Shown here piece by piece: positions 8,267-18,605 of a DNA stretch of 64,000 nt. The translations under genes were made by a program, and so were the position numbers. Under the pieces are notes generated by a model. It had not been told where the DNA came from and did not search any database. It saw only the letters and a list, made by a program, of their open reading frames with translations. Origin of the DNA: Marinilongibacter aquaticus (GTDB lineage Bacteria; Bacteroidota; Bacteroidia; Cytophagales; Spirosomataceae); the NCBI RefSeq assembly GCF_020149935.1, contig NZ_CP083757.1, positions 2,753,501 through 2,817,500 of the forward strand. Direction: 5' to 3'. Positions within the stretch are counted from its first letter, which is position 1; each line of letters opens with the position of its first letter.

Positions 8267-11200
8267 ATGTATAAAATCAAAAGCCGAAAAGCAATCGGCC
8301 GGGTATTTATCCTTGTGTGCATTGCTTTTTGGGCCGCATCCTGTGGTTCAAATAAAAACTACATTCAGGTTTCGAAAAACAGTCGCATTTCGATCATTGG
8401 CAACAATTTATGCTCGCGGATGATAAACTTTGGTTATTTCGAGACCGAATTGCAATTGAGGTATCCAGAAGATGATCTGTATATCCGGAACATGTGCGAT
8501 GGCGGAGACACGCCAGGGTTCAGGCCGCATTCGGGCCGGGTTTCTCCTTGGGCTTTTCCGGGAGCCGAACAATTCCAAACCGATTTGGCTCAGCCTTCTG
8601 GAAGTCAGGGACATTTCGAAACGCCTGATGAGTGGTTGAGCCGCCACAAAACCGATATCATAATTGCCTGTTTCGGTTTCTCTGAATCGTACGCGGGAAA
8701 AGAAGGCTTGGAAAATTACAAGAATGAGCTTCGGGCTTTCATCGACCATACGTTTTCCATGAAATACAACGACAGTTTGGCTCCTCAGCTGGCCTTGGTT
8801 TCACCCATTGCTTTCCAAGATTTGTCGTCCGAATTTGATCTGCCCAATGGCGAAAAAGAAAACGAGAATCTAGAAAGCTATACCCATGCCATGGAAGAAG
8901 TAGCAAAGGAAAAGGGAGTATTGTTTCTGGATGCCTTTTCGCCGTCGGGAAAGTGGTTCGAATCGGGTGAAAAGCTGACTATAGACGGCCTGCAATTGAA
9001 TGACGAAGGTTATCAAAAGTTTTCGAAACTGCTGGCAGATGGTGTGTTTGGCGAAGCAAAGAATGTGGACAGAAGCAAAGAAGAGGAGGTAAAGGAAGCG
9101 GTTTTGGAAAAGAACTGGTTTTGGCACAATGACTATAAAATACCCAACGGAGTACACGTATACGGGCGTCGTTATCGTCCATTTGGGAACGACAACTATC
9201 CAGAAGAGTTAATTAAAGTGCGACAAATGACGGCCAACCGCGACACCTTGATCTGGAAAACCGTAAAGGGACAAAAGTATGATTTGGCCGCAGCCGATGC
9301 CGAAACACAAACCTTGAGTCCAATTGAAACGAATTTTAAACTTTCTGGACAAACGAAATACCTTTATGCCGACGAGGCGATGAAGAAGTTTCACATGGCA
9401 CCAGGATATAAAATCGAGCTTTTCGCTTCCGAAGAAGATTTTCCCGAATTGGCCAATCCTTCTCAAATGTCATTCGACAATCAAGGTCGTCTTTGGGTAG
9501 CCGTAATGCCCACTTATCCGCACTACCGTCCGGGCGATCCAAGGCCCAACGATAAGCTCATTATTTTGGAAGATACGGACAAGGATTACAAAGCCGATAA
9601 GCTTACCGTATTTGCCGATAAACTGCATATTCCCGCAGGCTTTGAGTTTGCTCCAGATCCCGAGGGGCATTTGGGCGTTTACATTTCACAGGGCACAAAC
9701 CTGAAATATTTTGTAGACACCGATGGCGATGACAAAGCCGATAAAGTAGAGATTGTGTTGAGCGGCTTTGACGATCACGATACCCACCATGTGATTAGTG
9801 CATTTTGTGCCGACCCTTCGGGAGCTATATACATGGGCGAGGGTGTCTTTTTGCACACGAATGTCGAGACACCCTACGGAACGGTAAGGGCAACCAATGG
9901 CGGTTTTTATCGCTATGCACCACAACTGAAGAAGTTGGAAAGGACAGCCCAGCTTTCCATTCCCAACCCATGGGGCATTGCCTTCGACCGGTGGGGAGAA
10001 AACTTTTTCGCACACACCTCGGGTCCGGATGTGCAATGGATGATGCCGGGCACAATCAAATCGAAATATGGGCTGAGCAACCCACGAACCAAAGACTTGA
10101 TAGAGCCTGCACACCGTGTTCGGCCGACATCGGGTTTAGAGTTTGTGTCGAGCCGCCATTTCCCTGATGAAGTACAGGGCGACATGATGATCAACAACAC
10201 CATCGGTTTTTTGGGCACAAAAATGCATCAAGTAATAGAAGATGGAACCGGCTATAAAACGAAACACAGACTCGATTTGGTCCGAAGCGACGATCCTAAT
10301 TTCAGGCCAGTAGATATGGAATTTGCCCCCGACGGCTCTTTGTACCTTGTCGATTGGCACAATGTGTTGGTTGGCCATATGCAGCACAATGCACGAGATC
10401 CGCTTCGCGATCATGTGCACGGAAGAATTTACCGCATCACCTATCCTTCAAGACCTTTGGTTGAGCCTGCGAAAGTGGCCGGGGCATCGATTGAAGAATT
10501 GCTCGAAAACTTAAAGCTTCCGGAATACCGCACGCGTTACCGCACCCGTCGCGAGTTGCGTGAAAGAAACAAAGACGAGGTACTGAAAGCTTTGAAAAGT
10601 TGGACAGCCGCCTTGGATAAAAGCGACGCGAATTACGAGCACAATATGCTCGAAGCCCTTTGGGTTTCTTGGGGGCTTGATGCCGTAGATCAAGAATTGC
10701 TGAAAACCCTTCTGAATGCCCAAGATTACAAAGCCCGAGCTGCAGCGGTAAGGGTTTTGCGTTACACGGGCCATCAGGTCGACGATCAATTTGAATTGCT
10801 GAAAAAAGCCGCCGCCGATGAGCACGGGCGTGTACGATTGGAGGCGATGGTCGCAGCTTCTTGGCTGGAAAACGAAAAGGCAAAAGCGGTCTTGGCGATC
10901 GTTTCGGAAAAGCCCTTAGACGAGTGGATGAAAGAGCAGCATCAGGCTATACTCGATCACATGGTGCCATATTCTCCAGAAAAGAACACAGTAGAAAGTG
11001 TATCCACAGAAGAGCAGAAAGCCTTTTTGGCCGGAAAGGAAATCTACAGTCGCGAAGGTTTTTGCATTACTTGTCATCAAACAGATGGAAAGGGTTTGGA
11101 ATCTTCAGGATTTCCGCCTTTAGCGGGAAATGAATGGGTACAGGGCGACGAAGAGAAACTGATCAAAATTGTGTTGCACGGTCTGTATGGCCCTATCGAA

Positions 11201-18605: not shown

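Follow-up and report, generated by a model that had tools for sequence, protein, structure and literature searches.

In Pseudomonas and Gluconobacter, glucose is oxidized in the periplasm to gluconate and then to 2-ketogluconate by heme-linked dehydrogenases, and the ketoaldonate is imported and reduced. The IolO inositol branch of Thermotoga employs a 5-keto-L-gluconate epimerase, after which a reductase and a dehydratase act. The AA12 quinohemoprotein pyranose dehydrogenase of Coprinopsis cinerea combines a six-bladed propeller with a heme domain of its own, and passages of two reports propose that it oxidizes sugars at C1 (PMC6881789, PMC4332668). In PVC bacteria, the gene context of Planctomycete-type cytochrome c proteins ties them to carbohydrate use, according to sections of PMC5615132, and Aspergillus niger GluC is described in part of PMC4870679 as a 2-keto-L-gulonate reductase of the D-isomer-specific 2-hydroxyacid dehydrogenase family.

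A 64,000-nucleotide stretch of the Marinilongibacter aquaticus genome (hereafter the window; the genome is one contig of 4.64 Mb) contains a block of seven genes that resembles each of these systems in part. The products, in gene order, are CYT1, a ThuA-like protein, EPI, ENO, a VOC protein, HDH and CYT2 (Table 1). As in the Pseudomonas/Gluconobacter route, the pathway proposed below would oxidize its substrate outside the cytoplasm and reduce the imported ketoaldonate with a reductase of the 2-hydroxyacid dehydrogenase family; unlike that route, the core of the cassette is a ketose-3-epimerase-like enzyme, an enolase-superfamily dehydratase and a VOC protein, and its propellers are of another family. 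EPI belongs to the same epimerase superfamily as Thermotoga IolO, which acts on a ketohexonate, but it falls below the IolO cut-off, and the reductase and dehydratase of the cassette come from other families. HDH shares its family with GluC, a 2-ketoaldonate reductase; the relevant passages of PMC4870679 place GluC in the fungal D-glucuronate pathway and describe no enolase, VOC or cytochrome partners for it. CYT1 is like the C. cinerea enzyme, as portrayed in the passages cited above, in that a predicted propeller is fused to its own heme domain, but it differs in having a dead SGNH domain, HEAT repeats and a c-type heme, and in lacking the Arg of the pair that contacts pyrroloquinoline quinone (PQQ). 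CYT1 and CYT2 also share a c-heme and a carbohydrate gene context with the PVC proteins outlined in PMC5615132; they are of the TIGR02604/TIGR02603 type, however, and the PSCyt1/PSD1 type of the PVC bacteria is only an occasional extra neighbor (loci L010 and L014). No described pathway with this gene set was found in open-licence PubMed Central full texts.

Organization of the locus

The seven genes are compactly arranged on one strand, as the earlier note on this DNA had described, with no gap larger than 78 bp: CYT1 and ThuA are separated by 17 bp and ThuA and EPI by 78 bp, EPI and ENO overlap by 4 bp, and the remaining gaps are 2 bp (ENO-VOC), 16 bp (VOC-HDH) and 12 bp (HDH-CYT2). The ATG codons at 14501 and 15006 were taken as the starts of VOC and HDH, both of which lie within longer mechanically called open reading frames. 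The family names in that note agreed with domain searches against Pfam and NCBIfam.

Table 1. Coordinates and predicted character of the features of the seven-gene block (8267-18605).
Feature	Coordinates	Strand	Description
CYT1	8267..11401	+	lipoprotein-like N-terminus, dead SGNH domain, propeller-like DUF7133, HEAT repeats, one c-heme
ThuA-like protein	11419..12369	+	PF06283, 38.0 bits (cut-off 33.4); lipoprotein-like N-terminus judged by eye
EPI	12448..13332	+	AP_endonuc_2 TIM barrel (PF01261), D-tagatose/D-psicose 3-epimerase and IolO type
ENO	13329..14498	+	mandelate-racemase-group enolase superfamily (MR_MLE N and C domains); predicted sugar-acid dehydratase
VOC protein	14501..14989	+	PF00903; invariant H9, H67, E117; conserved C-terminal tail
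HDH	15006..15986	+	D-isomer-specific 2-hydroxyacid dehydrogenase (2-Hacid_dh)
CYT2	15999..18605	+	PVC-type propeller protein, C-terminal TIGR02603 c-heme domain
Terminator-like hairpin	18617..18649	+	14 pairs; consensus match only; 3' of the last gene (CYT2)

Operon boundaries around the block are no more than plausible. Terminator-like sites number 24 between 7000 and 20000, compared with 15.2 +/- 4.1 in shuffled sequence, and the 248 bases that precede the block contain no TAnnTTTG element. An aldehyde dehydrogenase, a GSDH-type protein (PQQ sugar dehydrogenase family) and a GH43 protein are encoded upstream, at 1505-5868, and could be part of the same sugar metabolism. Directly downstream (18789-19976) lies a gene for a membrane protein with no Pfam match, which by eye presumably resembles the NagX/HGSNAT-like transmembrane acetyltransferases that PMC9007349 describes.

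A conserved four-gene core

ENO was sought in one genome per species across approximately 85,000 species, and 69 loci were obtained. A 32% paralogue (L073) and a locus containing only a short end of ENO (L074) were dropped before the core was counted, leaving 67 loci, five of which (L016, L043, L055, L062 and L072) are truncated where the contig stops. In all 62 loci with enough contig, EPI, ENO, VOC and HDH lie on one strand in identical order, the median gaps between successive genes being 7, 13 and 12 bp. A separate sample of the phylum was drawn without the pattern scan, and ENO was present in 13 of its 395 genomes, the M. aquaticus genome included. The order of the core was the same in all 11 genomes fetched from the 12 others (G083 was not refetched); three of the 11 loci (L116, L117 and L120) agree with loci from the species scan in their coordinates or in the length of the contig, and eight are therefore new. 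Across the matches in the species scan and the phylum sample, ENO is 65-89% identical to the ENO of the window.

Residue conservation was examined in alignments from which matches with less than 85% coverage were left out, as were rows whose matched segment ran across a stop codon (L014, L033, L063 and L071 for ENO; L018, L020, L023, L031 and L036 for HDH). Invariant residues number 195 of 389 in ENO (63 rows), 123 of 294 in EPI, 76 of 162 in VOC and 63 of 326 in HDH, which by this measure is the least conserved member of the core. The invariance of half of the ENO residues argues for a single defined ENO substrate.

The conserved unit is therefore the four-gene cassette EPI-ENO-VOC-HDH, and not the seven-gene set that the earlier note had treated as a unit; the cytochrome genes and ThuA are variable. 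That note had also asked whether the set is broken up in close relatives, and the answer is divided: the three sampled members of the genus (the window, L006 and L009) all have the seven genes in one shared order, and the set is incomplete in the other loci.

Active sites and folds of the core enzymes

EPI retains E141, H199 and E234 in 66 of 66 rows and D173 in at least 65 of them. E141 and E234 are presumably the catalytic glutamate pair of a ketose 3-epimerase-type site, in which D173 and H199 would be metal ligands. EPI scored 152.4 and 151 bits against the D-psicose 3-epimerase and IolO equivalogs, below the cut-off of 300, and 36 bits against the inosose dehydratase IolE. A weak match to a 3-keto-D-glucoside 4-epimerase (6wn6) was also obtained.

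The chemistry of the enolase superfamily requires a carboxylate substrate. The ENO of the window contains K180-x-R182, D213-x-H215, E239/E240, E265, D288, H315 and E340. All 63 rows have E239, E265 and H315, and at least 62 of them have D213; D288 is present in 62, with one row gapped. D213, E239 and E265 are taken here to be the three metal carboxylates, and H315 and D288 to form a His-Asp dyad. ENO scored below the cut-offs for the named dehydratases (arabinonate, 217 against 650; galactonate, 212 against 311; talarate/galactarate, 183 against 500; and others), and neither it nor EPI reached the equivalog cut-off of any named sugar-acid dehydratase or epimerase.

The catalytic triad of the D-2-hydroxyacid dehydrogenases is Arg-Glu-His. 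HDH keeps R233 and H281, but has Q262 in the window where most of 57 rows have Glu, and Pro occupies this position in L013, L015, L017, L041, L042, L044 and L068. The triad is thus incomplete in the window, although the Pfam domains of HDH are over the cut-off. To judge from these sequences, HDH may be changing function or be under relaxed constraint, while EPI, ENO and VOC stay strict.

The fold of the VOC protein was modeled with a pLDDT of 90.6, and the best matches in a fold search (Z 10.6) were a tie among dioxygenases, MMCE and HPPD that does not separate reaction types. Alignment with MMCE placed its three invariant residues as putative metal ligands. Distant relatives of the VOC protein occur on plasmids (five records, four inspected) in mixed contexts that gave no functional lead.

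CYT1, CYT2 and the PQQ question

CYT1 contains DUF7133, TIGR02604 (204.1 bits; cut-off 122.2), HEAT and cytochrome c domains, whereas CYT2 is over the cut-off for TIGR02603 (101 bits; cut-off 68.15) and below that for TIGR02604 (80.5 bits against 122.2). Each protein of the window has one CxxCH motif (CITCH at residue 933 of CYT1, CNRCH at residue 736 of CYT2), and CxxCH is present in 58 of 59 CYT1 sequences. Of the two propeller-cytochrome dehydrogenases named in the earlier note, the protein family and the c-heme were borne out by the domain searches for both; their architectures differ, and a dehydrogenase function is a prediction for each. The M. aquaticus genome has eight places over the TIGR02604 cut-off (split matches counted once), which makes CYT1 one among several proteins of this type; at E <= 1e-100, it has a single close CYT1 homologue.

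Canonical SGNH proteins contain a GDSL motif with the nucleophilic Ser and a DxxH motif with the catalytic His. The N-terminal domain of CYT1 has an SGNH fold by structure search (Z up to 20.4), with DGxQL in place of DxxH in 59 of 59 sequences and, in the readings listed, motifs of the GNNL and GGNL types in place of GDSL. As the active-site Ser and His are absent, this domain may bind, but probably does not hydrolyze, a ligand.

From an alignment of 17 rows, the propeller of CYT1 gave a mediocre model (mean pLDDT 66.7), which matched the AA12 PQQ sugar dehydrogenase structures 6i1q (Z 18.0, rmsd 4.0, 279 aligned) and 6jt5 (Z 17.3, rmsd 3.6, 267 aligned), and the propellers of hedgehog-interacting protein (HHIP) at Z 15-16. 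A profile search with CYT1 gave no significant match in the PDB, and ThuA had no PDB match at E <= 0.001.

In the C. cinerea enzyme (CcPDH), the residues that contact PQQ are Arg430-Asn431, according to a passage of PMC6881789. PNPWG is found at the place of this pair, located by motif and not by structure alignment, in 51 of 59 CYT1 sequences; the other eight were unmatched by the pattern. CYT2 keeps the pair at the motif level, as RN-x-[FY]-D, in 23 of 23 sequences. None of 59 genomes had PqqB over the cut-off, and the M. aquaticus genome gave only a 42-bit partial match. Five of the 59 relatives (G032, G019, G030, G023 and G035) have a full-length PqqB-like match below the curated cut-off, which suggests that some members of the family may make PQQ, whereas the window genome seems not to. 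A search for PqqC carried no information, as none of the 14 control genomes gave a match either.

Variable partners of the core and of CYT1

Within the fetched flank (10 kb or less) of the 67 loci, CYT1 was found in 29, CYT2 in 12, either of the two in 36 and a ThuA-like gene in 26; the core was accompanied by neither cytochrome gene in the remaining 31. The arrangement also differs between groups: CYT1-ThuA-core in the group of the window, ThuA-core with CYT1 on the opposite strand in most Pedobacter, core-ThuA-CYT1 in Chitinophaga, ThuA-CYT1-core in Saprospiraceae, and core-CYT2 without CYT1 in Emticicia. Two of the eight new loci from the phylum sample (L113 and L115) have core-ThuA-CYT1.

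In a tree of 59 CYT1 proteins, the 27 core-adjacent copies fell into four groups separated by starred branches. When L113 and L115 were added, parsimony gave five changes, four of which are forced by the starred branches; the rows for CYT1 far from the core, or in genomes without ENO, came from 32 chosen regions, a subset of the known CYT1 copies. The changes may be gains or losses, and separate gains are favoured by the differing gene orders. As core-adjacent CYT1 occurs in separate clades with differing orders, the linkage probably arose several times, which supports a functional link. That one gene among thousands would repeatedly come to lie beside the core by chance is unlikely. The tie that the earlier note had drawn between periplasmic c-heme propeller proteins and a cytoplasmic acid-sugar set is upheld by these groups of CYT1, at least four in number, with their varied gene orders, to which the phylum sample adds a fifth by parsimony.

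Co-occurrence of CYT1 and ENO at the level of genomes was also considered as evidence of a link, and was rejected as mostly phylogeny. It looked strong initially, since CYT1 was matched at E <= 1e-200 in 33 of 37 ENO-bearing genomes (two of the 37, G030 and G275, seem to be one genome taken twice, the match in G282 is partial and G270 holds a 44% paralogue). However, CYT1 is near-universal in Algoriphagus (69 of 72 genomes, against 12 of 72 for ENO), and within the family of M. aquaticus, genomes that lack ENO commonly carry it; in the taxonomic order of the window, CYT1 is present in 47 of 241 genomes and ENO in 4.

Other neighbors of the core were annotated from 60 chosen proteins, a subset of the total. 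In L040 the gene after HDH is gluconolactonase-like (SGL), and L019 has such a gene a short way upstream of EPI. In Emticicia aquatica, genes for an alpha-L-fucosidase, a DUF2264 protein, a PfkB kinase and an AGE-family epimerase lie just upstream of the core (L007:3867-8893), a possible hint at the substrate. In another Emticicia locus (L010:6051-9974), a PSCyt1/PSCyt2/PSD1 Planctomycete-type protein and a DUF1501 protein are encoded between EPI and ENO, and in L014 a PSCyt1-LRR protein immediately follows HDH, which brings the kinds of cytochrome protein next to the core to three.

Away from the core, CYT1 was often beside ThuA in the 32 fetched regions, and beside a CYT2 relative in Algoriphagus and some others. 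In L076, which lacks ENO, the neighbors of CYT1 include SusD, an alpha/beta hydrolase and two AP_endonuc_2 genes, and in Maribacter CYT1-ThuA is beside genes for a PF06439 3-keto-disaccharide hydrolase and Gfo/Idh/MocA proteins. An AraC-type regulator is near CYT1 in L078. These contexts give CYT1-ThuA the look of an independent periplasmic module for sugars, the chemistry of which may be C1 oxidation or 3-keto formation.

Proposed pathway and alternatives

Gene content and order, the active-site residues of EPI and ENO, and the repeated linkage of CYT1 with the cassette are direct observations; from them a pathway is proposed tentatively, as quite possible if short of probable, in which a sugar is oxidized in the periplasm by CYT1 and CYT2 and the resulting acid is epimerized, reduced and dehydrated in the cytoplasm. 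The sugar, free or released from a glycoside, would lose its electrons via the c-hemes of CYT1 and CYT2 themselves, and the product, presumably an aldonic or ketoaldonic acid, would be imported. EPI would then invert the carbon adjoining the 2-ketone (C3 epimerization), HDH would reduce the 2-keto acid at C2 to a new aldonate, and ENO would remove water to yield a 2-keto-3-deoxy sugar acid, which could enter central metabolism through aldol cleavage by a KDPG-aldolase-type enzyme encoded elsewhere. The VOC protein might be a metal-dependent helper that acts on an intermediate, perhaps as an isomerase or epimerase. Epimerization, reduction and dehydration, in that order, appear chemically more natural than epimerization, dehydration and reduction, the sequence imagined in the earlier note.

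This pathway is supported by the retention of the catalytic residues of EPI and ENO and the constant order of the core, by the high rank of AA12 PQQ sugar dehydrogenases in the structure search with the CYT1 propeller, and by the lactonase-like genes (L040 and L019) and the PfkB kinase gene (L007) near the core. It is further supported by the two KDPG-aldolase-family matches over the cut-off in the M. aquaticus genome, and by the existence elsewhere of 2-ketoaldonate reductases of the HDH family. It is weakened by the 31 of 67 core loci without a cytochrome and the largely phylogenetic co-occurrence, by the PNPWG of CYT1 in place of Arg-Asn in a genome without PqqB over the cut-off, by the Gln for Glu in the HDH of the window, the low conservation of HDH and the failure to reach any equivalog cut-off, by the VOC protein, which has no place in the simple scheme, and by the different company of CYT1-ThuA in Maribacter. 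There is a real chance that the cassette represents a new pathway. The fuller claim, that Bacteroidota have an undescribed acid-sugar pathway with VOC as an essential fourth enzyme and CYT1 and CYT2 as its periplasmic sugar dehydrogenases, is on balance unlikely.

The association of CYT1-ThuA with PF06439 and Gfo/Idh/MocA genes in Maribacter, and with SusD, two AP_endonuc_2 genes and a hydrolase where ENO is absent, would also suit a periplasmic 3-keto-glycoside system comprised of CYT1, CYT2 and ThuA, with the core disposing of the released keto-sugar or keto-acid. The weak match of EPI to 6wn6 points the same way, as does a passage of Price et al. 2022 (PMC9007349) in which the fate of 3-ketogalactose is stated to be unknown. 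Neither PF06439 nor Gfo/Idh was seen, however, among 40 core-locus neighbors scanned (a chosen sample), and 3-keto-sugars lack the carboxylate that ENO needs unless they are also oxidized at C1; this explanation is considered improbable while carrying appreciable weight. The core could alternatively be complete alone, with CYT1, ThuA and CYT2 as co-regulated neighbors in one carbohydrate neighborhood and not steps of the pathway. The loci with neither cytochrome, the scarcity of ENO in Algoriphagus, where CYT1 is near-universal, and the retention by CYT1 of its own partners (ThuA, CYT2 and SusCD) in genomes without ENO are all consistent with two separate functions, but they have to be set against the four or more separated groups of core-adjacent CYT1 with differing orders, as a single gene in a genome of 4-6 Mb would rarely be a chance neighbor; separate functions seem rather unlikely.

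A cyclitol or quinate-like route, in which the TIM barrel and the VOC protein act as the two halves of QuiC1 and are fed by periplasmic polyol oxidation, was raised by the match of the VOC model to the TIM barrel/HPPD fusion 5hmq (Z 9.2); QuiC1 and QsuB are two-domain enzymes with 3-dehydroshikimate dehydratase and HPPD-like domains, as part of PMC7442255 describes. As 5hmq is one of many VOC folds that match at Z 9-10.6, and EPI scored 152 bits against the ketose 3-epimerases and IolO but 36 against IolE, such a route is very improbable. Of the readings considered, periplasmic oxidation followed by epimerization, reduction and dehydration of the acid is the likeliest, if a tentative one.

Implications

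Heme-propeller proteins of the TIGR02604 type are numerous in such genomes, and no assigned role was found for them. The core is unusually constrained and lies repeatedly beside them, which makes the role of the propellers testable: a constrained set of cytoplasmic partners with recognizable chemistry offers a route to the substrate of a heme-propeller protein. The pathway could also bear on the fate of 3-keto-sugars, an open matter according to the passage of PMC9007349. If CYT1 and CYT2 are indeed the dehydrogenases of the cassette, CYT1 would use a cofactor other than PQQ, or none, and the widespread TIGR02604/DUF7133 heme-propeller proteins would gain a defined metabolic role.
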